This document shows, piece after piece, positions 21,235-36,522 of a stretch of DNA of 64,000 bases. This stretch comes from Microbacterium lushaniae (GTDB taxonomy: Bacteria; Actinomycetota; Actinomycetes; Actinomycetales; Microbacteriaceae). A model generated the notes under the pieces. It made no database searches, was not told the origin of the DNA, and saw only the letters and a list, made by a program, of their open reading frames with translations. The DNA is taken from positions 496,001 to 560,000 of the forward strand of contig NZ_CP044232.1 in NCBI RefSeq assembly GCF_008727775.1, read 5' to 3'. A program made the translations under genes and the position numbers. Numbering within the stretch: the stretch's first letter is position 1; each line of letters opens with the position of its first letter.

Positions 21235-21897
21235 GTGGAGCGCTCCCTCGAGACGCAGGTGAGCCAGGCCGTGGACGTCTGGCTGCGCTGGCTGCCGCGC
21301 TGGGAGCCGGCGACGCACCGCGGGAGGGTGGCGCCGTGCCGGCGCTGCTTCGGCTCGCCCCTGCTGTCGGCGGCGGGACTGGGCGCCGACGTGCCGCACG
21401 GCGTGCAGCACGGGCTGTCCACGCGCGTGAAGGCGATCGTCGACGCCGCCGTCGCGGACTACACCGCCCGCAACCTCCCGATGCTGCAGGCCGAGCTCGA
21501 ACAGCAGGCCGCCCGCAACCGCGCGCGGACCTATCGCCCCGCCGAAGGCCTCGAGCCCGAGTTCGAGGGGCTCCCGCTGGATCCCGATCCCGTGCCGGGT
21601 GCGCCGTTCCTCTTCACGGTGTCGGGCCTGGCCGCCGAGGAGGAGGCCGCGATCCCCGCCCTGCCGCCCCTGACCGATGAGGCCAAGGCGGCGCTGCGGC
21701 AGGAGGTGGGCCTGGCCGACGACTACGCCAACATGATCGGCCGGGAAGTGTGCGCCATCCTCCTGCATCACCGCCTGCGCATCCAGGCGGCCGTCTCGGA
21801 GTTCGTCGAACCGCAGATCGCCGCGATGCTGGAGGAGCTCACCCGTTCGCTGGACTCCCCGTTCGATCCCCACGACCCCGGGCCGCCGGCTCCCTGA
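21235..21897 (+). CDS. Hypothetical protein with CxxC motif
   Basis: 220-aa soluble protein of unknown function. The N-terminal region holds a CRRC pair (residues about 35-38) inside RVAPCRRCFGSPLLS, which could bind metal or be redox active. The rest is rich in Ala, Glu and Leu and likely helical, with no catalytic motif that I recognise. The GTG start is supported by the TAGCGT box just upstream. It precedes the kinase operon but is separated from it by 120 nt. Confidence 0.65.
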   Translation: MERSLETQVSQAVDVWLRWLPRWEPATHRGRVAPCRRCFGSPLLSAAGLGADVPHGVQHGLSTRVKAIVDAAVADYTARNLPMLQAELEQQAARNRARTYRPAEGLEPEFEGLPLDPDPVPGAPFLFTVSGLAAEEEAAIPALPPLTDEAKAALRQEVGLADDYANMIGREVCAILLHHRLRIQAAVSEFVEPQIAAMLEELTRSLDSPFDPHDPGPPAP

Positions 21898-22017: not shown

Positions 22018-23151
22018 TTGCCGACACGCCTGCCCGCCGCGCCTCCGATCCTCCCGGGCCTGACCTACACCCGCCCGCTCGGATCCGGGGGATTCGCCGA
22101 CGTCTTCCTGTACGAGCAGGACATGCCGCGCCGAAGCGTCGCGGTCAAAGTGCTCCCCAGTGACGTGCGCGACCCCGACCTGCTGCGCATGTTCAACGCC
22201 GAGGCCGACGTCCTCGCGCAGCTGTCGGCGCATCCCTCGATCGTGACGGTGTACCAGGCCGGCATCTCCGCCGACGGACGCCCCTACATCGTCATGGAGT
22301 ACTGCCCGGGGTCTCTCGCGCAGCGGTACCGCGTCGAGCGCATCCCCGTGCCCGAGGTGCTGGCGATCGGGGTGAAGATGGCCAGCGCCCTGGAGACCGC
22401 CCACCGCGCGGGCCTCGTGCACCGGGACGTCAAGCCCAGCAACATCCTCATCACGACCTTCGGCGCCCCGGTGCTGGCCGACTTCGGCATCGCGTCGGCC
22501 CTGGCCCGCCAGACCGCCGACGAAGTGCTCGCGATGAGCGTGCCGTGGAGCGCGCCGGAGGTCGTCGCCGAGCAGACCGCCGGCACCGTTCCCAGCGAAG
22601 TGTGGAGCCTGGGCGCCACGATCTACTCGCTCCTGGCCGGTCACAGCCCCTTCGAGCGGCTCGAGCGCGGTCAGAACACACGCGAGCAGCTGCGCCGGCG
22701 GATCGCGCGCGCGAGCTACACCGAGATCGCGCGCGCGGACGTGCCGCCGTCGCTGCAGACGCTCCTGGCACGCACGATGAGCCGCGACGCGCGGGACCGC
22801 TTCGCCAGCGCGCTGGAGGTCGGGCAGGCCGTGCGCACCGTGCAGGCCGAGCTGGGCCTGCCGGTCACGCCGCTGGAGGTGGCGGCGGACGAGTGGGCTC
22901 CGGGGGTGCGTTCGGTGGACTTCTCCGACTCGTCGGTGCGCGGCCCGGTGCGCAGCTCGGTCGAGCACAGCGGGCGGCGGAAGTCGCGCACGTCCTCCGG
23001 CATGGCAGGCCTCGCGCGGGACGAGGACACCGAGATCTCCTCCCCGGAGCGGCGCACCCGCACGGCGGTGCCGTGGCTGCTCGGCGCCGCGGCCCTCATC
23101 GCGGGGGGCGCCGTCGCCGTCACGGCCCTGTTCGCCACTGGGATCCTCTGA
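22018..23151 (+). CDS. Membrane-anchored Ser/Thr protein kinase (Hanks type)
   Basis: 377-aa kinase, first gene of the envelope-signalling operon. Motifs: Gly-rich loop GSGGFADV (about 20-27), catalytic Lys in VAVKVLP, HRDVKPSN (about 137-144), DFG near 156, and APE in the activation segment. The catalytic set is complete, so it should be active. Unlike PknB-type kinases it has no PASTA repeats. The single membrane helix (WLLGAAALIAGGAVAVTALF) is at the extreme C-terminus with only a few residues beyond, so any external sensing must use a partner, probably the Ig-like protein encoded next (TGATG overlap). The TTG start follows GGGGGAGGG. Confidence 0.92.
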   Translation: MPTRLPAAPPILPGLTYTRPLGSGGFADVFLYEQDMPRRSVAVKVLPSDVRDPDLLRMFNAEADVLAQLSAHPSIVTVYQAGISADGRPYIVMEYCPGSLAQRYRVERIPVPEVLAIGVKMASALETAHRAGLVHRDVKPSNILITTFGAPVLADFGIASALARQTADEVLAMSVPWSAPEVVAEQTAGTVPSEVWSLGATIYSLLAGHSPFERLERGQNTREQLRRRIARASYTEIARADVPPSLQTLLARTMSRDARDRFASALEVGQAVRTVQAELGLPVTPLEVAADEWAPGVRSVDFSDSSVRGPVRSSVEHSGRRKSRTSSGMAGLARDEDTEISSPERRTRTAVPWLLGAAALIAGGAVAVTALFATGIL

Positions 23152-26100
23152 TGCGTCGCCGCAGGATCGCCGGCCTCGCCGCCGGAGCCGCCGCACTCGC
23201 TCTCGTGGCGGGCGTGAGCATCGTCTGGCCGGGCCTGGACGCCCAGGAGACGCCTGAGGTCGACGCGTCGGTGTGGGCGCTGCAGACGGCCGACGGCCGG
23301 CGGTACGCGCGCGTGAACACCGCGATCGGCGAGCTGGACACCGTGCGCAGCGTCAGCAACCCGACCGCCGTCGCGCAGTCGCCCGATGGCGCCTTCCTCT
23401 TCTCCGACAGCTACAGCAAGCTCACCCGGATCGACGAAGCCCTCCCCGCCGACCTGGATGAGGAGACCCTGCGCTCGTCGGAGTCGACACCGGCGGGCAC
23501 GACCGAGGTGCTGACCTCCGGCGACTTCGTGGCCTACCGCACCGACACCGGGGCCGTCCACGCCGGCCGGCTCTCCACCGCCGACGCCGCGCAGCTCGAC
23601 CCGTTCGCCTCGGCGGAGGACGAGGAGGAGGACGCTCCCGAGTACACCGCGGAGGCGGTGGCGGTCAACCGCGAGGGGCTCCTGTTCGCCTACTCGGCGA
23701 CGGACGGATCCGTGCTGCGCTACGACATCGCCGGCGACGAGGTGCGCGGTCGCGACCCGCTCACGGCCGAGATCGCCAGCCCGGTCCTCACCGCCGCCGG
23801 CGACACGTGGGCCCTCGTGGACCGCGAATCGGGTGAGGTGCACGTGCGCGGCCGCGAGGAGTCGGTGACGGTGGAGCTCTCCGGCGACATCGTCGTGGGA
23901 GAGCCCGACCCCGACGGGACCGACGTGTGGATCGCGGGGGAGAACGGGCTCGTGCGCGTCTCCGCCGACGGGGCCGTGAGCGTCGAGGTCGATCGTGGCG
24001 CCACGGTGCTCGGTACGCCGGCCGCGCCGATCGTGCACGAGGGCGAGACCTTCGCGGCGTGGCTCGGGCCCACCGACGGCGGCGGCACGCTGTGGAGCTC
24101 GCGGGCGGGGGAGACGGCGCTGGAGTACGGCGCGGAGTCGCTCGGCGACGAGCGGCGGCCGGTGTTCGTCGCGACCGGTGGGGCGGTGATCCTCAACGAG
24201 GTGCGCACGGGGTGGGTGTGGACCCTGCCCGACGGGCGGCTGGTGCCCTCCAGCCAGGACTGGTCGCTGGATGACCGCACCGACCCCGCAGCCGTCCCCA
24301 GCGAGGAGCAGCTGGCCGTCGTCATCGACCCGAAGCCACCGATCGCCGAACCCGACGCGTTCGGCGTGCGGGCGGGACGGCTGGCCACCCTCCCGGTGCT
24401 CCTGAACGACCACGATCCCAACGAGGACGTGCTGAGCATCGACCCCGCCTCGGTGACGGGCCTGGATCCCGGGTTCGGCACCGTGAGCGTCACCGACGAC
24501 GGCCAGCGCTTCGCCGTGCACGTCGCCCCCGGCGCATCCGGCAGCGCGACCTTCACGTACGGCGTCACCGACGGCACGACCGCCGACGGGATGGTGTCAC
24601 CGGCCACCACCGTCACCCTCACCGTCTCCGGCGGCGACGGCGCCCCGCAGTGGTGCGGCGTGGAGAAGTGCCTCGTGCCCTGGCCCGCACCCGAGGTCGC
24701 GCGCGGCGGCACCGTGACGGTGCCGGTGCTGCCCGGCTGGGTCGACCCCGACGGTGATCCGCTGCTGCTGCTGTCGGTGGAGAACCCCTCCGGCATCGGC
24801 ACGGTCGCCTCCTCGCCCGGCGGCGACGTGGTCTATCAGCACGCCGACGACGGCAGCGGCGGCGAGCAGCTCATCGAGCTGACCGTGAACGTCGCCGACA
24901 CCGCGGGACAGATCACCAGCAAGCCGCTCGTGGTGCGGGTGACCCCCTCGCCCGCGCTGAGCGTGCAGTCCTTCGCGCGCGTGGACACGGTGGAGGGCGG
25001 CATGACGATCGACGTCGCCCCGCACGTCACCGGGACGGCGGGCACGCTGTCGCTGACCTCGGTGCGCGTCCTGGACGACCGTGCCGCCACCGCGACCGTC
25101 GTGGGTGGCACGACGACGTTCGACTTCACCGCGGGCGAGCCTGGCACATTCCGCGTCGGTTTCACCGTCACCGACGGGGTCTCGGATGCCACGGGCACGG
25201 CGCGCATCACGATCCTCCCGCCCGACGCCCCCGCGCAGCTGGCCACCTCGCCCGTCGTCGCCTTCGTCCGCCCGCAGGAGGACGTCACGCTCGACGTGTT
25301 CGCCGCGGTGTCCAATCCCACGCGTCGCGTACTGCTGCTCAGCGACGTCGTGGCCTCCGCCGACGAGGGCGCGACGCTGTCGGTGGACGCGGTGGGGCAG
25401 AGCAACCTGCGCGTGTCGGGCACGACCGCCTCCGGCGGCGCGGGGCGCCTGGGCACGGTGTCGTACACCGTCAGCGACGGCACCGAAGACGCCGGGGCGC
25501 GCGTGGCCGGGGAGGCGACGGTGTACCTGCTGCCCCCGGCGCCGGAGCTGGCGCCCATCGCCGTGGACGACATCGTCACGGTGCGCGCCGGCGCCCAGGT
25601 CGACATCCCGGTGCTCGAGAACGACATCTCCCCGGCCGGGGGACGCCCGAGCCTGGACCCGTCGTCGGTCGCCTCGAGCGTGCCGGAGGCGCTGGCCTTC
25701 GCCTCCGGCGATCTGCTCCGCTACCTCGCGCCCACCGAGCCGGGCGACTACGGGGTGGAGTACTCCGTGTACACGACCGGATCCCCCTCCCTCGTGGACA
25801 CCGCGACCGTCCGCATCCGGGTGCTGCCCGACGACGCCAACCGCCCGCCGCTGCCGGCGACGCTGGAGGGGCGCGTGCTCAGCGGCGGCACGACGACGGT
25901 CGAGTTCGACGGCTTCGGCATGGACCCCGACGGCGACGTCGTGACGCTGGACCGCATCCTCACCCAGCCCGAGCGCGGGTCGGCCACGATCTCCGCCGAC
26001 GGCTCGTCGATCGTGTACTCCTCGCTGCCGGGCGACCGCGGGCAGGTGTCGTTCCGCTACCGCGCGGTGGATGCCTCGGGGGCGACGGGGGAGGGCACCG

Positions 26101-29100
26101 CCCGCATCGGCGTCCTGGACGCGCAGGCCAACCCGAGTCCCATCACCTTCACCGATTACGTGCAGGTGCAAGCCGGCGAGGACAACACGATCCGCATCAG
26201 CCCGCTCGCCAACGACATCGACCCCACGCAGGGATCCCTGACCCTCACCGATGTGCGCCCCGACCTGCCGGAGACCTTCGCCGACGACGGCAGCGACAAC
26301 CCCGAGTACGCGCGGCTGAAGGAGCAGATCCTCTCCGTCACCGACACCGGCGTCGTCCTGGCCGCCGGGGCGCTGCCCGGCACGATGTCGTTCCTCTACG
26401 ACGTCGAATCCGACTCGGGGAACACCGGTCGCGGCCTCATCGTCGTCAAGGTCGTGCGCGAGAGCGTGCCGGACCACCCGATCGTCTCGGACACCGTGCT
26501 CACGGCGGAGAACCGCGAGGAGTTCATCTCGGGGGTCGACGTGCTCACCGGCAAGGCGACGTGGTCGCGTGGCGACGTCGACGACCTCGAGGTGAGCCTG
26601 TGGGGCGAGCCGGAGGGCGTCGGATTGAGCGGGCGCGAGCTCAGCGGCGATCTGCCGGCCACCACGCGCCTGATCCCCTTCGCCGTCCACGGGGTCGTCG
26701 GCGAGGAGGAGATCACGACGTACGCGTTCCTGCGCGTACCCGGTGACGACGACCTGTCGCTCTCCCTGCGCTCGGGGACGGCGCCGCAGGAGGTGCCCGA
26801 ACTGGAGTCGGTCGCCTTCGACATGGCCGACCTGGTGGCCCTGCCCCGCGGGGCCGAGCTGGAGGTGGGGACGGATGTCAGCGCCTCGGGCGCGCGGCCG
26901 GAGGCGGCGTGCGCCCTGGAGGCCGGCACGCGCGTGCGCTACGACGCGGGGGCCGGGGCGCCGTGGACCGACGCGTGTCAGGTGCCCGTGCGTCTGGCCG
27001 GCACCGAGGAGTGGACGTACCTGTCGGTGCCGATCACGGTCGCCGCCCGCGATCCGCAGCCCGAGCTGCGCCCTGCCTCCCTCACGGTGGGGCCGGGCGA
27101 GACGGCCACGTTCGACCTGCGCGAGATGACCACGTGGCAGCTGGCGCGCGAGGACTGGGGCGCCATCCAGTACACCCTGGAGTACGGCGGCCCCGCGTTC
27201 GAGGTCACGCTTTCGGGGTCGACCGTCACCGTCGTGGGCGCCGACCGGGCGACACCGGGCAGCGAGAGCGCGGCGATCGTCGGGGTGAGCAGTCATCCCG
27301 CCGTCGCCCCCGCCCGACTCCTGCTGCGCGTGGGGGCCGCGCCCTCGACCCTCCCCCAGGGCGGGTCGGTCACGCAGCAGTGCTCGCAGGCGTCGGGGAC
27401 CTCCTGCACGATCCCCGTCATCGGCGCCGGCGGCGAAGTGAATCCGCTGCCGCGCACGCCGCTGGAAGTGGTCGACGTCCGCCCCACCGGCGCGTGCGTG
27501 GGCGTGAGCTTCCAGGTCGCCTCGGCCGGGGCGGTGGCGGCGTCGTGGACACCGGATGCGCCGGGGGCGACGTGCACCGCGACATTCTCCGTGCGCGACG
27601 CGCAGGGACGCACCACCGCCTCCGAGCGCGACGGCCGCATCCTGCTCGACCTCCAGGGCTACCCCAAGGCGCCCGCCGGTGTCCGCCAGAGCGCCTACGC
27701 CGACGGGACCGTGACGCTGCGCGTCGACGCGGGCGAATCGCGCCTGGCCTACCCCGGGCTCAGCGGCTTCGTCGTGCGCAGCGGCGGCGCCGAGGTGGCC
27801 CGCTGCTCGGCGGACGGCGTGTGCCCGGTCATCTCCGCGCCCAACGGGGAGCAGCGCACGTACGAGGCGTGGGCCGTGAACGCCGTCGGCGAATCCCGCA
27901 CGAGCGTGCGCACGATCGCGTGGGCGTACGACGTCCCCGCGACCCCGGGGAGCGTGGATTGGCAGCCCGTGCCCAACGGCGACGCCGGCGGCGTCATCGC
28001 CCTGACCATCGGCGGCATCGACTCGGCCGAGACCGGGTTCCTGCGGATCCAGAGCGCGACCGGTGTCTCGCGGGACGTCGAGGTGCGAGTGGGGCAGGAC
28101 TCCGTCTCGCTGGACCGCTTCGAGATCGGCTCGAACGCGGCGACGGCCGTCACCGTGACGCCGTTCTCGCGTTTCGACACTCCTCCGGGCCTCGGGGGTG
28201 CCGCGTCGGGTCAGGCCCGCACGATCACGGCCAACGGCATCGGCGCCCCGGCCAACCTGTCGCTGGTGCTGGTTGCCCGATCCACCGGCGACGACAGCGC
28301 GGCGGTCACCGCGACCGCGCGAGCAGACCTCAACGGCGCCGGCTCCCGACTGCTCTTCGACATCGTCCCCGCGAACCAGGCGGGACGGTGCGACCCGCGC
28401 ACGGCGGGGTCACCCGCCTACACCGAGGAGTTCACCGGACTCGAAGCGGGCGAGGTGTACGAGTACGTGGCGTGCGTGGTCTCCGAACGCAACGGACAGC
28501 GCTTCGGCGACGCCGAGGCGCGCAGCTCGATCCAGATCCAGATCGCCCGGGATCCGCGCGGGTGGAGCTACGCGGTGAACTCGCGCCCGGACGTGTCGGG
28601 CCAGCGTGCGGAGTGGCGGATGGGCGAGCCCCGGTCGGATGACCGCATTCCGCGCGGCTACCAGCCGGAGTTCTCCGGGTGGCCCAGCAGCGTCTTCAAC
28701 AGCGACCCCGGCATCACCGTGCGTTACGTGCGCAACGAAGCCGGATGGCAGCCCTCCGGGTCGGTCGCCGTACCGCCCGCATCCGGCAGCGCCCCGTACC
28801 AGGTGGCGATCGAATGGGGCGTGACCAGCTGCGTCGGGGGGTCACCGCTCGCGGTGGGCAAGACCGCAGGGCCGGGCACGGTGACCGCCGACACGCAGTC
28901 CCTCCTCATCCGGTACTTCGATGCCCGGAACATCCTCGTCATCCCGGACACTGCCGGCACCGTGCCGGTGCGCGCGGTCCGGGTCGAGAACATCCCGGTG
29001 ACCGCGTCGGTGGGGCAGTGGGGCCTGGGCGATGCCCGCGGGTCCGCGTCCTTCGGCAGCTGCGATCCCAACCTGCCCCCGGAGCCGCAACCCACGCCGA

Positions 29101-29126
29101 CCCCGACCGACCCAACGACCCCCTGA
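23151..29126 (+). CDS. Giant secreted/membrane-anchored Ig-like and fibronectin-like domain protein
   Basis: 1991-aa cell-surface protein. An N-terminal helix (residues about 5-28) anchors or exports it. Residues about 35-370 look like a beta-propeller-type sensor region. From about 390 on, bacterial Ig-like modules repeat, recognisable by cores such as TLPVLLNDHDPNED, DIPVLENDISP and ISPLANDIDPT. Two or three fibronectin-III-like modules (for example APAGVRQSAYADGTVTLRV near residue 1506) precede a Pro/Thr-rich C-terminus. There is no LPXTG motif and no second helix. Its gene overlaps the kinase gene by 1 nt. Role unknown; a surface scaffold or ligand sensor for the kinase is an inference from gene order. 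Confidence 0.88.
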   Translation: MRRRRIAGLAAGAAALALVAGVSIVWPGLDAQETPEVDASVWALQTADGRRYARVNTAIGELDTVRSVSNPTAVAQSPDGAFLFSDSYSKLTRIDEALPADLDEETLRSSESTPAGTTEVLTSGDFVAYRTDTGAVHAGRLSTADAAQLDPFASAEDEEEDAPEYTAEAVAVNREGLLFAYSATDGSVLRYDIAGDEVRGRDPLTAEIASPVLTAAGDTWALVDRESGEVHVRGREESVTVELSGDIVVGEPDPDGTDVWIAGENGLVRVSADGAVSVEVDRGATVLGTPAAPIVHEGETFAAWLGPTDGGGTLWSSRAGETALEYGAESLGDERRPVFVATGGAVILNEVRTGWVWTLPDGRLVPSSQDWSLDDRTDPAAVPSEEQLAVVIDPKPPIAEPDAFGVRAGRLATLPVLLNDHDPNEDVLSIDPASVTGLDPGFGTVSVTDDGQRFAVHVAPGASGSATFTYGVTDGTTADGMVSPATTVTLTVSGGDGAPQWCGVEKCLVPWPAPEVARGGTVTVPVLPGWVDPDGDPLLLLSVENPSGIGTVASSPGGDVVYQHADDGSGGEQLIELTVNVADTAGQITSKPLVVRVTPSPALSVQSFARVDTVEGGMTIDVAPHVTGTAGTLSLTSVRVLDDRAATATVVGGTTTFDFTAGEPGTFRVGFTVTDGVSDATGTARITILPPDAPAQLATSPVVAFVRPQEDVTLDVFAAVSNPTRRVLLLSDVVASADEGATLSVDAVGQSNLRVSGTTASGGAGRLGTVSYTVSDGTEDAGARVAGEATVYLLPPAPELAPIAVDDIVTVRAGAQVDIPVLENDISPAGGRPSLDPSSVASSVPEALAFASGDLLRYLAPTEPGDYGVEYSVYTTGSPSLVDTATVRIRVLPDDANRPPLPATLEGRVLSGGTTTVEFDGFGMDPDGDVVTLDRILTQPERGSATISADGSSIVYSSLPGDRGQVSFRYRAVDASGATGEGTARIGVLDAQANPSPITFTDYVQVQAGEDNTIRISPLANDIDPTQGSLTLTDVRPDLPETFADDGSDNPEYARLKEQILSVTDTGVVLAAGALPGTMSFLYDVESDSGNTGRGLIVVKVVRESVPDHPIVSDTVLTAENREEFISGVDVLTGKATWSRGDVDDLEVSLWGEPEGVGLSGRELSGDLPATTRLIPFAVHGVVGEEEITTYAFLRVPGDDDLSLSLRSGTAPQEVPELESVAFDMADLVALPRGAELEVGTDVSASGARPEAACALEAGTRVRYDAGAGAPWTDACQVPVRLAGTEEWTYLSVPITVAARDPQPELRPASLTVGPGETATFDLREMTTWQLAREDWGAIQYTLEYGGPAFEVTLSGSTVTVVGADRATPGSESAAIVGVSSHPAVAPARLLLRVGAAPSTLPQGGSVTQQCSQASGTSCTIPVIGAGGEVNPLPRTPLEVVDVRPTGACVGVSFQVASAGAVAASWTPDAPGATCTATFSVRDAQGRTTASERDGRILLDLQGYPKAPAGVRQSAYADGTVTLRVDAGESRLAYPGLSGFVVRSGGAEVARCSADGVCPVISAPNGEQRTYEAWAVNAVGESRTSVRTIAWAYDVPATPGSVDWQPVPNGDAGGVIALTIGGIDSAETGFLRIQSATGVSRDVEVRVGQDSVSLDRFEIGSNAATAVTVTPFSRFDTPPGLGGAASGQARTITANGIGAPANLSLVLVARSTGDDSAAVTATARADLNGAGSRLLFDIVPANQAGRCDPRTAGSPAYTEEFTGLEAGEVYEYVACVVSERNGQRFGDAEARSSIQIQIARDPRGWSYAVNSRPDVSGQRAEWRMGEPRSDDRIPRGYQPEFSGWPSSVFNSDPGITVRYVRNEAGWQPSGSVAVPPASGSAPYQVAIEWGVTSCVGGSPLAVGKTAGPGTVTADTQSLLIRYFDARNILVIPDTAGTVPVRAVRVENIPVTASVGQWGLGDARGSASFGSCDPNLPPEPQPTPTPTDPTTP

Positions 29127-29162
29127 CCTCCGCCCCACCGCACCGACTGAAGGACCCCACCG

Positions 29163-30128
29163 ATGACCCTCACCCAGGAGCAGGCCACCTGGTTCGCCAC
29201 GACGTTCGGCCAGCTCGCCGACAACGTCGAGCGCGCCGTCCTCGGAAAGCGCCACATCGTGGAGCTCGTGCTGACCGCGATGCTCAGCGACGGCCACGTG
29301 CTGCTGGAGGACGTGCCCGGCACCGGCAAGACCTCGCTCGCGCGCGCGATCGCGCAGTCGGTGCAGGGCACCAACACGCGCATCCAGTTCACGCCCGACC
29401 TGCTCCCCGGTGACATCACCGGCATCACCGTGTACGACCAGAAGACCGGTGAGTTCGAGTTCCACTCCGGCCCCGTCTTCGCCAACATCGTCCTGGCCGA
29501 CGAGATCAACCGCGCGAGCCCCAAGACCCAGTCCGCGCTCCTCGAGGTCATGGAGGAGGGTCGTGTCACGATCGACGGCGTGACGCGGCCGGTGGGGGTG
29601 CCGTTCCTCGTCCTGGCGACCCAGAACCCCGTCGAACAGGCCGGGACCTACCGGCTCCCCGAGGCGCAGCTCGACCGCTTCATGATGCGCACCTCGCTCG
29701 GCTACCCCGACCATGCCGCGACGGTGCGGATCCTCGACGGCGGCTCCACGGCCACGGCGGAGCTGACCCCGGTCATCACGCCGCAGGCGCTCGTGGGCAT
29801 GGCCGACCTCGCCGCCGACACGTACGTGGACGCGCTCGTGCTGGACTACATCGCGCGCCTGGTGGATGCCACGCGCTCGGCGGACGAGGTGCGCCTGGGT
29901 GTCAGCATCCGCGGTGCCCTCGCCCTCACGCGCGCCTCGCGCGCCCGCGCGGCGTCGCAGGCGCGCACCTACGTCACCCCCGACGACGTCAAGGCGCTCG
30001 CCGTCGCGGTGCTCTCGCACCGCCTGATCCTGCACCCCGAGGCCGAGTTCGACGGCGTCACGCCCGAAGCCGTCATCGGGCAGGTGCTCCTCGACGTCGC
30101 GCCGCCCACCCAGCGCGAGGCGGTATGA
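29163..30128 (+). CDS. MoxR-family AAA+ ATPase
   Basis: 321-aa cytoplasmic ATPase, a chaperone-like partner of VWA proteins. Walker A is DVPGTGKTS near residue 51, Walker B with the MoxR signature is LADEINRASPKTQSAL near residues 110-125, and the sensor 1 region is LATQNP near residue 152. The C-terminal lid contains VSIRGALALTRASRA. MoxR proteins are typically encoded with a DUF58 (VWA-like) protein, exactly as here (ATGA overlap with the next gene). It probably remodels or activates the DUF58 or transglutaminase-like partner. Confidence 0.94.
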   Translation: MTLTQEQATWFATTFGQLADNVERAVLGKRHIVELVLTAMLSDGHVLLEDVPGTGKTSLARAIAQSVQGTNTRIQFTPDLLPGDITGITVYDQKTGEFEFHSGPVFANIVLADEINRASPKTQSALLEVMEEGRVTIDGVTRPVGVPFLVLATQNPVEQAGTYRLPEAQLDRFMMRTSLGYPDHAATVRILDGGSTATAELTPVITPQALVGMADLAADTYVDALVLDYIARLVDATRSADEVRLGVSIRGALALTRASRARAASQARTYVTPDDVKALAVAVLSHRLILHPEAEFDGVTPEAVIGQVLLDVAPPTQREAV

Positions 30129-31495
30129 CCCCGACCGAGGCAGGCCTCACGCGCACGTCGTTCTCGTCCACCGCGACGGCGTCGCGCACGTCGGTGACCT
30201 CCACCACGACGGCGCGGCGCGGACGCGGGCTCGTCCGTGCGGTCGTGTGGGCGACGGCGGCGTGGCGGGCGCTCGTGCGCGCGGTCGCCGCCGCCGTGCG
30301 CTGGTGCGCCGGCACGGTGCGCCCGGCGGGCGCGCTCGTGGTCGTGGCGGCCACCGCGGGCCTGGTCCTCGGGATGGTGTTCGGATGGGTGGAGTGGATG
30401 GTCGCGGGCGCGGCGGCCCTCGTACTGCTGGTGATGAGCGTGCCCTTCCTCTTCGGCGCGCGCGCGTACGACGTCGACCTCAGCCTCGCCCACGAGCGGA
30501 TCGTGGCCGGCCAGGGGGTCGAGGGCGAGATCGTCGTGCGCAACCATGGACGGCGCATCGCCCTGCCCGGCCGCCTGGACATCCCCGTCGGTCGCGGCCT
30601 GGTGGAATTCGGCGTTCCGCTGCTGCGACCGGGGCACACCGTCGCGCAGCCGCTGGAGATCCCAGCCCTGCCCCGCGGCATCGTCCGCGTGGGGCCGGTG
30701 ACGACGGTGCGCAGCGACCCGCTCGGGCTGCTCCGCCGCGAGCACGCCTTCCCCGACCAGCACGAGCTGTACGTGCACCCGCGCACCGTGGGCCTGCCCT
30801 CCACGAGCGCCGGTCTCATCCGCGACCTGGAGGGCAACCCCACGCGGCGGCTCGTGAACGCCGACATGTCCTTCCACGCCATCCGCGAGTACGCCCCCGG
30901 TGACGCGCAGCGCCAGGTGCACTGGAAATCCACCGCCAAGACCGGCCGGCTCATGGTGCGCCAGTTCGAGGAGTCGCGCCGCTCGCGCATGGCGGTGGTG
31001 CTGGGCACGGCGCAGCAGGAGTACTCCGACGCCGACGAGTTCGAGCTCGCCGTCAGCGCCGCCGCATCCCTGGGCCTGCGCGCGGTGCGCGACGCGCGCG
31101 ACCTCGACATCGTGATCGGCTCGGAGATCCCGCGCGTCGTGCGCGGTCGCCTGCGCGCCATCCAGCACATCCCCACCGTCGCCCCGCGTCCCATGCTCGA
31201 CGGGTTCAGCGCCGTCAACCGGCTCGAGAACACCATGAACATCGAGGACATCTGCCGCCTCACCTCCGAGGCCAACGAGCGCCTGTCGATCGCGTTCGTC
31301 GTGGTCGGCTCCCTCGTCCCGCTCGTGCGGCTGCGGCAGGCCGCCCTCGCCTTCCCCCTCGACACCACCGTCGTCGCTGTGATGTGCGACGAGCACGCCC
31401 ACCCCCGCATGCAGTCGCTGCCGGGCATCTCCGTCCTCACGATCGGCACGATCGAGGATCTGTCGGGCCTGCTCCTGCGGGGAGCTGCGTCGTGA
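30125..31495 (+). CDS. DUF58 domain-containing membrane protein
   Basis: 456-aa protein. After a Thr/Arg-rich N-terminus, two membrane helices lie near residues 68-110. A cytoplasmic or surface beta-domain and then the DUF58 region follow, with the family signature REYAPGDAQRQVHWKSTAK near residues 255-273. DUF58 is related to VWA domains and is the usual MoxR partner. It overlaps both neighbours by 4 nt, which indicates one tightly coupled complex of MoxR, DUF58 and transglutaminase-like protein. Confidence 0.92.
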   Translation: MTPTEAGLTRTSFSSTATASRTSVTSTTTARRGRGLVRAVVWATAAWRALVRAVAAAVRWCAGTVRPAGALVVVAATAGLVLGMVFGWVEWMVAGAAALVLLVMSVPFLFGARAYDVDLSLAHERIVAGQGVEGEIVVRNHGRRIALPGRLDIPVGRGLVEFGVPLLRPGHTVAQPLEIPALPRGIVRVGPVTTVRSDPLGLLRREHAFPDQHELYVHPRTVGLPSTSAGLIRDLEGNPTRRLVNADMSFHAIREYAPGDAQRQVHWKSTAKTGRLMVRQFEESRRSRMAVVLGTAQQEYSDADEFELAVSAAASLGLRAVRDARDLDIVIGSEIPRVVRGRLRAIQHIPTVAPRPMLDGFSAVNRLENTMNIEDICRLTSEANERLSIAFVVVGSLVPLVRLRQAALAFPLDTTVVAVMCDEHAHPRMQSLPGISVLTIGTIEDLSGLLLRGAAS

Positions 31496-33965
31496 CCGCG
31501 CGGCGCGTGGCCGGGGGATCCGTCTTCGTCGGCGTCACCGCCGTCGCCGCGGCGGTCGCGGCGTGGCCGGTGTACGCCTCGTGGCAGTTCGCCGTCCTCG
31601 CCGCGGTGGCAGCGGCCGTGGGCGCCGGCATCGCCGCGCTGGTGTTCCGGCGACGGTGGAGCCCGTGGCGGACGGCCGCCCTGCTGGCCGGGGCGTTCAT
31701 CCTGCTGTGCGTGCCGCTGGCCGTGCCCGCGCGGCTGGGCGGCCCCGTCGACCTCCTCCGCGGCCTGGGGGAGGCCGCCGCCGGCGTCGTCCTGGCGTGG
31801 AAGGACCTCATCACCGTCGACCTTCCGGTGGGGGCGTACCGCAACCTGCTCGTCCCGGCGCTGGTGATCTTCCTGGCCGGCACGTGCGGGGCCCTGCTGC
31901 TGTCGTGGCGCAGCGACCGCTGGGCGATCGCCGCCGTCCCCGTCGGGTTCGGGATGCTGGGATTCGGGCTGTTCTTCGGACGCACCGAGGTCAGCGACCC
32001 CCTGCGGGTGGGTGCGGTGACCCTGTACGCGCCGGCTGAGACGCTCCTGGGAGTGGTCGGGCTGCTGTCGGCGGTGCTGTGGCTGGCGTGGCGGACGCAC
32101 GACGAGCGCGTGCGGGCGCTGTACCGCGCGGCCACCGCGAGCGGCGTACGGGTCTCGCGACGCCCCTCGCGCACCGACCGGCGCCGCACGGCGCTGGGGG
32201 CGGCGATGGTCTCGCTCGCGCTCGTGGCCGCCGTCGCGATCGTGCCGTGGGCCGCACGCGGCGCCGACCGCGATGTGCTGCGTTCGGCGGCCGGACCCGA
32301 GCGCGAGATCGCCGCCGCCGTCAGCCCGCTCACGCAGTACCGCGCGCTGTTCGCCCCCGAGCGCGCCGACGACGTGCTGTTCCGCGTGTCGGGGGAGGGC
32401 CGGCTCCCCGAACGCGTGCGGGTGGCGACGCTCGACACGTACGACGGCGAGACGTTCCGTGCTGGCAGCGGTGACCCCGGGGCATCCGCGTCGTTCGTAC
32501 GGGTGCCGGCGGCGCTGGATGCCGGCGAGGGGGCCGCGGTCGAAGCGGAGATCGCGATCGAGGCGCTTGAGGGCATCTGGCTGCCCACGGTCGGGCGGGT
32601 GTCGTCGGTGGAGTTCGCCGGAGAGCGCGCCGCGGCCCTCGCCGACCGCTTCTACTACAGCGCCCACGCCCAGGCCGGCGTCGTGACCGCCGGGGCGGGG
32701 CCCGCGACGGCGACACGTACCGCGTGCGCGCCGTCGAACCGCCCGCGGCCGATCTGGCCGCCCTCGAGGCGCCCGGCTACGACGCGTCGGCGCTGCCGGC
32801 GCCGGACAACCTCGTGCGGTGGGTCGAGGAGCACGCGACGGGTTCGGACGGCGCGGCCCTCGCGGGCCTCGTGGAGCTGCTGCGCGAGCGCGGCTTCCTC
32901 AGCCACGCGCTGGCGATCGACGAGGATGCGCCGCCGTCGTGGATGCCCGAGCTCGCGCCCTACACGTTCCAGCCCAGCGCCGCGGGGCACTCCCTCGCCC
33001 GCATCGACACGATGTTCGCGCGTCTGCTCGAACGCGAGAGCGACCCGCGGGCAGCCGCATCCGGGAACTTCGTCGCCGCCGTGGGCGATGAGGAGCAGTT
33101 CGCCGTGGCCACCGCGCTCATCGCGCGCGAGCTGGGATTCCCCGCGCGCGTCGTGCTGGGCGCGCGGCTGAGCGCCGCCGACACCGGCGTCTTCACCTGC
33201 GAGGACGGCGTGTGCCGCGCGCAGGACCTTTCGGTGTGGACGGAGGTCCGCGACGTGGACGGGGCCTGGACCGCCGTCGACGTCACGCCGCAGTGGAGCC
33301 GGCCCCCGAGCCTGGAGGTGACCGAGCAGCGCGACCCGGAGAACGTCACCGAGGTGCGCCCCGACACCGTCGAGGAGGTCGTGCCGCCCGAGCCCGTGCA
33401 GGAGGACACCGCGCGCGATGACGACGGCGACGACGGCGCGGGATGGGACCTGTCGTGGCTGTGGCCGATCCTGCGGATCGTGGGAACAGTCCTGCTCATC
33501 CTTCTGGTGATCCTGGGGCCGTTCCTCCTCATCGTCGCCGCGAAGGCGGTGCGTCGGCGGGGTCGGCGCCTCGCCCCCGACGCAGTCCAGCGGATCGCCG
33601 GCGGCTGGGACGAGTACGTCGACGCGGGCACGGACGCCGGGCGCGCCGCGCCGCCCGCCGGCACGCGACCCGAGCTCGCCGCAGCGTTCGCCACACCCGC
33701 CGGCGCCCACCTGGCGGCGGAGGCCGATCGGGCGGTGTTCTCGAGCGAGACGGCGACGCTGGATGACGCGGAGGAGTTCTGGCGCATCGTGGATGACGAG
33801 CGACGCGCGCTGACGCGCGGCGCAGGATTCCGGCGCAGCATCCTCGCGGCCCTATCTTTGAGATCATTCGTCCGCGTCGTCGCGCCGCGGGCGACGGAGC
33901 GGATAGCTCGCATCGTTGAGAGGGGGAAGCGCCGGCGGCTGAGCCGCGGGCGCGAAACGTCATGA
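31492..33965 (+). CDS. Transglutaminase-like (TgpA-type) membrane protein, frameshifted, catalytic residues replaced
   Basis: About 824 aa once a single missing base near 32692-32705 (a GGGG-C-GGGG-CCC tract) is restored. The N-terminal half up to about 32700 and the C-terminal half from about 32706 lie in different frames. Five to six N-terminal helices, an external domain, the transglutaminase-like core and a last helix (WPILRIVGTVLLILLVILGP) can be seen. In the core the normal GDC motif reads GDEEQFA (Glu codon 33090-33092 at the Cys position) and the HAW motif reads SVWTEV (Ser at 33231). Only the Asp (33279-33281) remains. The domain is therefore probably non-enzymatic. The GTG start overlaps the DUF58 stop. 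Confidence 0.85.
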
Positions 33966-35362
33966 ACATGGATGTCATCACGGTCGCGATGGGGGTGACC
34001 TCGTTCATCCTGCTCGTGGTCCTGTACCTCTGGATGGCGCTGGCGCTGTCCGCCCTGTTCCGCAAAGCCGGCGAGGAGGGGTGGAAGGGCTGGGTGCCCG
34101 TGCTCAACCAGGCCGTGCTGCTGCAGCTGGGCGGGTTCTCGCCGTGGCTGATCCTCCTGATCCTCATCCCCGGCCTGGGTGCCCTGGCGGTGTACGTGCT
34201 GCTCGTCGTGGCCGCGCACCGCATCAACCGCTCCTTCGGCTACGGCGCCGGGATGACGGTCCTCGCGGCGCTGTTCATGCTCATCTGGGCCAGCGTCCTG
34301 GGGTTCGGCGCGGCGCGCTGGATCGGCGAGCCTCCGGCCCACGTGCGGCGCTCGAACGAGCCCGCCGCCCCCGCCGCCCCGCCGCTGGTGGGCGGGTGGA
34401 CCCCGTCCGCGCCGCCGCCCCTGCCCGCTCCGGCGCCGGCCGGCGCGTCCGCCGGCCCTGGCGCGGCGGCTCCGGCGTGGGCGCCCTCGACCCCGCCGCC
34501 GCCTCCGCTGCCGCGCGTGTCGGCCGCACCCGCCCCCGCGCGCGGCCCGCTGTCGCCGGAGCTGGAGGACAGCGCGGTGGATCCCGAAGACCGCATGCCC
34601 GCCGCGGCCGCCCAGCCCGCCGGATCGTTCACCCCGCCGCCGGTGCCGCCCGCGGCCGCCGCCGCGCCCGAGCCGATCACCCCGATCTCCTCCGTTCCCG
34701 GCATGCGCTCGGCCCCGCCGCCGGCTGCCGCACCCGCGCCCGTGCACAGCGTGCCGGATGCTCCGACTCCGGCACCCGAGCCCGAGCCGTGGGCGCCGGC
34801 CCCCGTGACGCAGGCTCAGCCGCCGGTGCAGCACGACACGTTCGGCGAGCTGTCCGAGGCCGTCTCGGCGGTGTCGGGAGCACCGGATGCCGGCGCTCCG
34901 CGCTCGGCCCGGTCGTCGGTGTCTGCGCTGTACGCCGAGCCGGGGATCGGTGACGAGCAGTTCGGCGCGGCCGATCCGGCCGCCGATGACGAGCCCTTCG
35001 ACCAGACGGTCATCGCCAAGCGCCGCCGCACTCCGTGGAAGCTCATCCCGCCCTCGGGTGCGCCGCTGGACATCTCCTCCGACGTCGTCATCCTCGGGCG
35101 CAAGCCCGCACCCGACCCCGCGTACCCCGACGCGCAACTGGTCTCGATCCCCGACGAGACCCGCACCGTCTCCAAGACGCACGCGCGGCTCGAGTTGCGC
35201 GGCGAGACCTGGTACGTCACCGACCTCGGCTCCACCAACGGCGTGCTGTTCGCCACGCTGATGGGCACCGAGGTGGAGGCGCAGCCCGGGCAGGAGCTGG
35301 AAGCGGGTGAGCGCTTCTTCCTCGGCGACGCCGAAGTGCGGCTGCGTCGCACCGACGCCTGA
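33962..35362 (+). CDS. FHA domain protein with N-terminal membrane domain
   Basis: 466 aa. Residues 1-120 form three membrane helices with the pattern of small DUF5684-like domains (EEGWKGWVPVLNQAVLL). A long Pro/Ala-rich linker (about 125-345) follows. A C-terminal FHA domain (about 358-466) carries the phosphothreonine-binding signature: ILGRKP, VSKTHARLEL and DLGSTNGVLF. FHA domains read Thr phosphorylation, so the kinase encoded upstream is the likely writer. FDQTVIAKRR just before the FHA domain could itself be a phosphosite. The start overlaps the stop of the transglutaminase-like gene. Confidence 0.9.
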   Translation: MNMDVITVAMGVTSFILLVVLYLWMALALSALFRKAGEEGWKGWVPVLNQAVLLQLGGFSPWLILLILIPGLGALAVYVLLVVAAHRINRSFGYGAGMTVLAALFMLIWASVLGFGAARWIGEPPAHVRRSNEPAAPAAPPLVGGWTPSAPPPLPAPAPAGASAGPGAAAPAWAPSTPPPPPLPRVSAAPAPARGPLSPELEDSAVDPEDRMPAAAAQPAGSFTPPPVPPAAAAAPEPITPISSVPGMRSAPPPAAAPAPVHSVPDAPTPAPEPEPWAPAPVTQAQPPVQHDTFGELSEAVSAVSGAPDAGAPRSARSSVSALYAEPGIGDEQFGAADPAADDEPFDQTVIAKRRRTPWKLIPPSGAPLDISSDVVILGRKPAPDPAYPDAQLVSIPDETRTVSKTHARLELRGETWYVTDLGSTNGVLFATLMGTEVEAQPGQELEAGERFFLGDAEVRLRRTDA

Positions 35363-35373
35363 GCGGAGCATCC

Positions 35374-35913
35374 ATGGGCCAGGACGACGACAGCGACGAG
35401 GACGACGTCACGCTGTGGGCGGGCCGGCTGCGGTCATGGCCTGCCCTCGACACCGACTTCGACGACGCCACCGCCCTGGCCGCACGGGATGGGGGACCGC
35501 GGCGGCGCGCCGAGGCCGCCGCGCCCCACCCGGAGGAACCGGAGGCCGGATCGACGGTCGTGGCCCGTCGCGAGACCCGCCGCCGGGCCACGCGGCCGCC
35601 CGAGGATGCCACGGCCCTGAGTCCCCGGCGCGACACCGTCGCCCCGCACCAGCCGTCGCTGCCGGAGGGCCGGCGGGCCGCCCGGGTACCGGACGGACAC
35701 GCGCGCGAGATCTACCGTCCCCGCACGATGGAGCCCGAGATCGTGGAGCGGCGTGCTCCCGCCCCCCGTGCGCCGCAGCATCCGGTCGCTGCCGGGGCCG
35801 CGGGCACGCGCGATCGCCGGCGGCGCCGGCGCTGGGCGGGGTGGGCCGCCGCGGGGGCCGTTCTCGTGGTGCTCGCCGCGTCCGCCGTCGTACTGATGCT
35901 CGCTCTGGGCTGA
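35374..35913 (+). CDS. Hypothetical single-pass membrane protein with acidic Thr motifs
   Basis: 179 aa, last gene of the kinase operon, 11 nt after the FHA gene. A disordered cytoplasmic part rich in Arg, Pro and acidic residues precedes one C-terminal helix (WAGWAAAGAVLVVLAASAVV). Two similar acidic-Thr motifs, DDATALAARD (about residues 29-38) and EDATALSPRRD (about 75-85), are reminiscent of kinase/FHA target peptides. Function not recognised; a kinase substrate or adaptor is an inference. Confidence 0.7.
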   Translation: MGQDDDSDEDDVTLWAGRLRSWPALDTDFDDATALAARDGGPRRRAEAAAPHPEEPEAGSTVVARRETRRRATRPPEDATALSPRRDTVAPHQPSLPEGRRAARVPDGHAREIYRPRTMEPEIVERRAPAPRAPQHPVAAGAAGTRDRRRRRRWAGWAAAGAVLVVLAASAVVLMLALG

Positions 35914-36153: not shown

Positions 36154-36522
36154 GTGCCAACCATTCAGCAGTTGGTTCGCAAGGGGCGTGCGCCGAAGGT
36201 CTCGAAGACCAAGGCTCCCGCACTGAAGGCGAACCCGCAGCAGGCAGGCGTCTGCACCCGCGTGTACACGACCACGCCGAAGAAGCCGAACTCGGCCATG
36301 CGCAAGGTCGCCCGTGTCAAGCTCCGCAACGGCACCGAGGTCACCGCGTACATCCCCGGCGAGGGCCACAACCTGCAGGAGCACTCGCTCGTGCTCGTGC
36401 GTGGCGGCCGTGTGAAGGACCTTCCCGGTGTGCGCTACAAGATCGTCCGCGGCGCCCTGGACACCCAGGCCGTGAAGAACCGCAAGCAGGCCCGTAGCCG
36501 CTACGGCGCGAAGAAGGGTTGA
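36154..36522 (+). CDS. rpsL: 30S ribosomal protein S12
   Basis: Decoding-centre protein of the small subunit, 122 aa, the standard length. The GTG at 36154 gives [12 protein letters not shown] and follows AAGGAG by 5 nt; the upstream in-frame ATG at 36118 would add 12 atypical residues and overlaps a leader hairpin. The conserved loops [10 protein letters not shown] and [10 protein letters not shown] are present, with lysines at the classical streptomycin positions. It is first in the str operon. Confidence 0.97.

Follow-up and report, generated by a model that had tools for sequence, protein, structure and literature searches.

The stretch analysed here (the window) comprises 64,000 nucleotides from the single-contig, 3.65-Mb genome of Microbacterium lushaniae (positions 496001-560000). 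It contains an operon of seven genes, all on the + strand (22018-35913), encoding in order a Ser/Thr protein kinase, a giant outside protein, a MoxR ATPase, a DUF58 protein, a transglutaminase-like membrane protein, a membrane protein with DUF5684 and FHA domains, and a tail-anchored repeat protein. The operon type is already known, being related to the Bifidobacterium PFNA operon, and the gene set is therefore not new; the new part is the repeat protein of the last gene and a short threonine motif that it shares with other proteins of the operon. We think it reasonably probable that the signalling half of this PFNA-like operon of Microbacteriaceae is a short-motif phosphothreonine docking system, which gates the MoxR-DUF58-transglutaminase machine. 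A wider proposal, put forward tentatively, is that of a bacterial phosphothreonine code: one motif would be written in a copy-variable membrane scaffold, in the kinase, in the FHA reader and perhaps, where one is kept, in a phosphatase, and the resulting multivalent cluster would switch an envelope machine.

The strongest evidence for a link between kinase and FHA protein sits in the last gene (35374..35913, + strand), which had been left out of the title of the initial annotation. Its product, 179 residues long, carries repeats of D-[DE]-x-T-V-[LIV]-S-x-R-R in its cytosolic part, followed by a C-terminal tail anchor. The window's protein has no match in Pfam or NCBIfam, and Pfam gave zero matches for five repeat proteins and three database relatives, one of the latter bearing a precomputed PF28211 label. 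A sequence-database search, in which the best 7994 candidates were scored, found at least 87 related proteins, the window's own included; the named ones are hypothetical or uncharacterized. The repeat protein, the shared motif and this operon in Microbacterium were not found among the literature matches listed.

The repeat gene was surveyed in 81 loci (80 and the window) as an open reading frame (ORF) lying after the FHA gene and having a C-terminal hydrophobic segment; it was found in 56 of them. The strict pattern occurs in 0 to 10 copies per orthologue, with a mean of 3.07 versus 0.15 in shuffled sequences, and the count exceeds the maximum of 300 shuffles in 28 of the 56 orthologues. A looser pattern gives 1 to 15 copies per protein. 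When the acceptor position was left free, threonine was found in 99 of 106 sites and serine in 3, a preference that fits a Thr-specific FHA partner. In the window, the motif-bearing stretch (35395..35644, + strand) includes three sites scoring at least 9 with the profile described below, and one more degenerate copy seen by eye. Tandem DNA repeats of 51 bp and 69 bp are present in the tail genes of two relatives examined, so that copy number can change by recent duplication; none was found in the tail gene of the window. Nine divergent repeat ORFs (threonine in 41 of 42 sites) had been picked for having the motif and were not used as evidence. In seven divergent loci (L103, L106, L108, L109, L112, L117 and L123) the repeat gene was not found after the FHA gene, and some of the kinase tails of these loci show further acid-threonine stretches by eye.

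The presence of the motif in the other proteins was evaluated by a position weight matrix, obtained from 300 sites of repeat proteins, comparing the best site of each protein with those of 20 shuffles of the same sequence. For the FHA protein and the kinase, this test is independent of the discovery of the motif by eye. The best site of the FHA proteins scores 14.15 on average, versus 3.05 in shuffles, and lies above all 20 shuffles in 62/65; it is located 115-121 residues from the C-terminus, i.e. just before the FHA domain. In the window it reads FDQTVIAKRRR (34997..35029, + strand; T349 and R354), some 10 residues ahead of strand 1 of the FHA domain. In the alignment, the threonine and the arginine at +5 are both found in 65/65 proteins. 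They are also invariant in 37/37 proteins from two families, with identity to the window's protein down to 33 percent, as are the FHA binding residues G-R, S-x-x-H and N-G in the same 37. The structure predicted for the FHA fragment (mean predicted local distance difference test score, pLDDT, 85.1) matches known FHA structures, with the motif in a low-confidence stretch. A search of solved structures with the single FHA protein sequence gave no match; the same search with an FHA profile retrieved GarA, OdhI and others.

The kinases reach a lower mean of 8.07, versus 3.03 in shuffles, and lie above all shuffles in 32/78. The window's kinase carries the juxtamembrane motif RDEDTEISSPERR (23017..23055, + strand; profile score 12.1), a candidate phospho-docking site; near that place, two acidic residues followed by threonine or serine are found in 73/77 orthologues (68 T, 5 S, 4 without). 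No site above shuffles was found in MoxR (0/74), DUF58 (0/73) or transglutaminase (0/72) proteins, nor in the separate C-terminal part of the window's transglutaminase (0/1). Giant proteins score 7.89 versus 7.48 in shuffles, exceeding them in 3/80. The motif is thus concentrated in the signalling proteins.

The relatives of the giant protein provide the frame for the comparison of loci. They were found in 53 of 59 Microbacterium genomes and, across the order, in 59/119 genomes and 27/56 genera. By identity they form two groups, type A (window-like) in 39 genomes and type B in 36, with both in 22, as tallied from the identity values of the relatives. The type-B giant protein is about 30 percent identical to that of the window, and the genome under study holds both types, its type-B gene being at 201669-206288 of the contig. 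Gene order was evaluated in two sets of loci, one of 30 type-A loci and one of 80 loci, 12 of the 30 being also among the 80. The kinase adjoins the giant gene in 106/107 loci with room upstream (30/30 and 76/77), the exception (L125) being a contig end with a split match. MoxR, DUF58 and transglutaminase follow in order in 94/94 loci with room downstream (30/30 and 64/64). The FHA gene comes next in 92/94 by BLAST; in the remaining two (L042 and L043) a weak FHA profile match follows a PP2C gene. The initial annotation had called for a check on whether the kinase and the Ig-like gene stay next to MoxR-DUF58 in relatives; these counts support the operon as a conserved linkage group. Chance ORFs were considered as its source and rejected, because gene order is conserved far above chance. 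Type-B giant genes occur in tandem in several genomes (G042, G021, G049, G022, G052, G098 and G140), G042 having four copies within about 24 kb. One contig labelled Stenotrophomonas maltophilia (L138) matches the giant gene at 58 percent, probably by contamination or mislabelling.

The profile was then applied, with a threshold score of 9, to 11 held-out type-A loci from outside the genus. The FHA site reached the threshold in 10/11, and 10/11 also had a further ORF with two or more such sites and no match to another domain (a count based on sites and domain matches). The remaining locus (L152) has four sites after a PP2C match, in the same frame. In L045, the frame of a second kinase contains five sites. 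The tails of PP2C proteins have a site scoring at least 9 in 10/20. Among the type-B and type-B-like loci (L051-L060 and L153-L180, some of them partial, and L175 without a recognised operon), no operon-strand frame of at least 80 residues with at least 3 sites scoring at least 9 was found. As a control within the same genome, 19 signalling proteins were scored: 5 reached at least 12, including the kinase and the FHA protein of the operon. Of the sites in the other three, one is located beyond a membrane helix, one overlaps the type-B protein's FHA domain, and one (in L192) has no explanation. L192 (C1:843459 of the same genome) is a long FHA-matching protein, with one site of 13.4; 933 of its 1706 residues were read.

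The initial annotation of the locus is confirmed in part. It had described seven genes in one orientation whose ends overlap or almost meet, and the coordinates bear out the junctions: TGATG between kinase and giant gene (23149-23153), ATGA between MoxR and DUF58, GTGA between DUF58 and transglutaminase, and ATGA between transglutaminase and FHA gene. The largest intergenic gap is of 36 nt, as claimed (29127-29162), and 11 nt separate the FHA gene from the last one. The domains matched are Pkinase, three stretches of Big_9, AAA_3 with AAA_lid_2, DUF58, TgpA_N, Transglut_core, and DUF5684 with FHA. The kinase (22018..23151, + strand; 377 residues from a TTG start; PF00069, E 7.2e-43) crosses the membrane with a single C-terminal helix and has hardly any outside part. 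The giant protein (23151..29126, + strand; PF17963 in three stretches) has the 1991 residues attributed to it, arranged as an N-terminal anchor, a beta-propeller (residues about 40-370) and bacterial immunoglobulin-like (Ig-like) repeats. In agreement with the propeller and Ig-like parts proposed initially, the AlphaFold2 model of residues 1-400 (mean pLDDT 82.8) shows a beta-propeller after a low-confidence N-terminal segment; propellers are most of the matches listed by Foldseek, the first being an archaeal surface-layer propeller-PKD protein.

The following genes encode a MoxR AAA+ ATPase of 321 residues (29163..30128, + strand; PF07726, 1.6e-62, and PF17863) and a DUF58 protein of 456 (30125..31495, + strand; PF01882, 3.7e-11). 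The N-terminus of the latter (30125-30240) is rich in Thr, Ser and Arg (LTRTS...RTSVTSTTTARR) and looks alike in the Microbacterium relatives compared; it is a possible further kinase target, though it does not contain the shared motif. The FHA protein (33962..35362, + strand; 466 residues) consists of a DUF5684 membrane domain (PF18936, 3.3e-14), a proline-rich linker and the FHA domain (PF00498, 7.9e-8). The end of the operon (35913) lies directly upstream of rpsL (36154..36519, + strand; found by tblastn), which is outside it; in the region considered, extending to 39186, the genes after rpsL are presumably rpsG and fusA.

The transglutaminase-like gene of the initial annotation (31492..33965, + strand) is present, but not as a single open frame. 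The frame of 31492-33171 encodes TgpA_N and that of 32724-33965 encodes Transglut_core, with the switch near 32,700. Among 102 loci with both halves identified, 101 have the gene as an uninterrupted frame and the window alone does not (the 12 loci shared by the two sets are shared in this count too). A programmed frameshift was considered and set aside, since visual inspection of the site showed no canonical slippery heptamer and those 101 loci have the gene intact; for the same reasons, the change may be a true mutation of the strain or an error of sequencing within a run rich in G/C.

The initial annotation had also remarked on the absence of a PP2C gene, as unusual for kinase/FHA clusters. 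The absence from the operon holds by domain and tblastn searches; it is a trait of a whole lineage, and not a peculiarity of the strain. The lineage was marked by the gene upstream of the operon (21235-21897), found beside 21/30 and 76/80 loci, the four of the 80 without it being short or cut; rpsL was not used as a mark because it lies downstream in just 15/20 and 42/60 loci reaching far enough, and is therefore common, not constant. Two PP2C queries run by tblastn found no PP2C in 20/20 and 60/60 of the loci that have both the upstream gene and a complete FHA gene and extend 1.5 kb or more past the latter, whereas PP2C is present in 20/20 type-A loci lacking the upstream gene, of which 9 belong to the genus and 11 to other genera; a twenty-first such locus (L148) was too short to count. 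Phosphatases are available in trans from elsewhere in the genome, which has four PP2C matches, none in the operon and one in the paralogous type-B operon, together with seven kinases above the cut-off, two weaker ones and eight FHA matches. The housekeeping PP2C was tried as a docked substitute and dropped, because its best profile site (13.3) is positioned after the transmembrane helix.

A mechanism consistent with the distribution of the motif would be the following. Threonines in the pattern D-[DE]-x-T-x-[LIV]-x-x-R would be phosphorylated by the kinase at several places: in the juxtamembrane stretch of the kinase itself, in the linker that immediately precedes the FHA domain, in the repeats of the last, tail-anchored protein and, where a PP2C gene is kept, perhaps also in the PP2C tail. 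The FHA domain would bind the phosphorylated motif of other molecules, and the motif of the kinase might recruit the FHA protein, as PknG tails are reported to do. The FHA protein's own motif is probably too near the domain for binding in cis, so that FHA proteins may join head to tail, and could in addition dock on the repeat protein. A membrane cluster would thus form, with a valency set by the number of repeats and, by gathering or releasing the DUF5684-FHA protein, it would gate the MoxR-DUF58-transglutaminase machine. The latter might remodel or mature envelope proteins, perhaps including the giant propeller-Ig protein. Of the interpretation given initially, in which an external protein reports to a kinase controlling MoxR through FHA binding, the conserved linkage of the genes is supported, whereas the signal from the external protein to the kinase is conjectural.

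The most serious alternative, which we regard as unlikely, is an ordinary PFNA-like operon with a switch of GarA/OdhI type, where the FHA domain closes in cis on its own motif and the last gene merely encodes a variable charged linker protein. The gene order is indeed that of PFNA, and the FHA profile matches the solved GarA and OdhI, which use an N-terminal ETTS motif. However, with some 10 residues between the motif and the first FHA strand there is little room for closure, and the peptide-binding end of FHA domains is the one opposite their termini, which makes binding in trans likelier; moreover, a cis switch leaves the recurrence of the motif in the kinase and in the repeat proteins, where the threonine is kept, unexplained. 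Somewhat less probable again is a role of the motif as a simple kinase substrate consensus, whose phosphates act by charge, for example by releasing RR stretches from the membrane, rather than by FHA docking. The acidic residues before the threonine and the arginines after it agree with such a role, as do the position of the kinase site near the membrane and the tail anchor of the repeat protein, but the 99 to 3 choice of threonine over serine fits FHA reading better, and so does the invariance of the motif beside an FHA domain whose binding residues are kept. Neutral low-complexity expansion by DNA slippage is very improbable: the tandem DNA repeats of the two relatives would suit it, but the window's copy has none, and slippage does not account for the single copy in the FHA protein, which keeps its position and does not vary across two families.

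Several observations count against the phosphothreonine docking system itself. The motif was first noticed by eye in the same repeat proteins in which it was later counted; 8 of the 56 have no strict copy, and the 2 strict copies of the window's protein equal its shuffle maximum of 2. The repeat gene was not found in 7 of the 81 loci despite sufficient room, while 18 were undecidable, this split of the 25 misses being judged from the locus listing. The kinase site, above shuffles in just those 32 orthologues, does not have the arginine spacing. High-scoring sites also occur elsewhere, 3 of the 17 other signalling proteins of the genome reaching at least 12 and the giant frame of one type-A locus (L044) holding 3 sites that score at least 9. 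The loose acid-T-R pattern of 19/20 PP2C tails counts little, because shuffling the tails reproduces it in about half of the cases. FHA domains are described, in the parts of the literature drawn on, as reading the +3 position, and the residues at +3 of the motif are small. The argument on cis distance rests on general FHA topology, and phosphorylation, binding, oligomers and the control of MoxR are steps that we infer. Finally, the transglutaminase gene of this very strain is broken.

The repeats would surprise a specialist; the mechanism is hypothetical, and the window's copy, with its broken transglutaminase, is a weak example of it. So far there is little explanation of what MoxR-DUF58-transglutaminase clusters do, and the motif names the exact threonines where kinase and FHA protein could join, a link that a single peptide would suffice to test. 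The occurrence of the scaffold in two families and the existence of a phosphatase-less lineage offer ready comparisons. Multivalent phospho-scaffolds are known in animals; if the proposal is true, the repeat scaffold, variable in copy number between species, would be their bacterial counterpart.

That the arrangement is essentially undescribed is not supported: in the parts of the published accounts drawn on here, the PFNA operon of Bifidobacterium has the same order, pkb2-fn3-MoxR (aaa-atp)-duf58-tgm, to which some species add prpC, a hypothetical gene and fha; its co-transcription is reported for B. longum GT15, and its kinase, Pkb2, is reported to phosphorylate MoxR (PMC8430577, PMC6803598). 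As far as described there, the two share five core genes in order on one strand, a transmembrane kinase, a large outside protein in second place and a late FHA gene; the window differs by its Ig-like repeats and propeller, the DUF5684-FHA fusion, the motif-repeat protein and the lack of PP2C. Pfam shows no fibronectin type III match in the giant protein, Big_9 and cadherin-like matches alone being found at E <= 0.001, and the operon is for this reason called PFNA-like, not a member. Further sources drawn on in part were PMC12067865, PMC7159879, PMC8546545, PMC7083832, PMC6733907 and PMC10688814. MoxR-vWA-propeller ternary systems likewise combine MoxR (here with a bpMoxR match, PF20030, 8.4e-11) and a propeller; in the window the best MoxR match is AAA_3, and DUF58 and transglutaminase take the place of vWA. 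A ternary conflict system of that kind was ruled out, no vWA match being found at E <= 0.001 among the operon's proteins.

Closer parallels to the proposed docking come from FHA proteins. In GarA and OdhI, according to the portions of the literature used, the FHA domain binds an N-terminal self-motif (ETTS) containing the threonine targeted by the kinase, and the autophosphorylated tail of PknG recruits an FHA substrate. A threonine motif N-terminal to the FHA domain is found here too (T349, in 65/65), but it is not ETTS, it is close to the domain, the FHA domain is fused to a membrane part and the motif is repeated in a separate protein. We know of no homology to TIFA or DgcB beyond the FHA domain. 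In TIFA a phosphothreonine N-terminal of the FHA domain is reported to be bound head to tail between molecules, and in DgcB the FHA domain to bind its own N-terminal motif; compared with what those accounts describe, the operon adds a second, multivalent candidate ligand protein.

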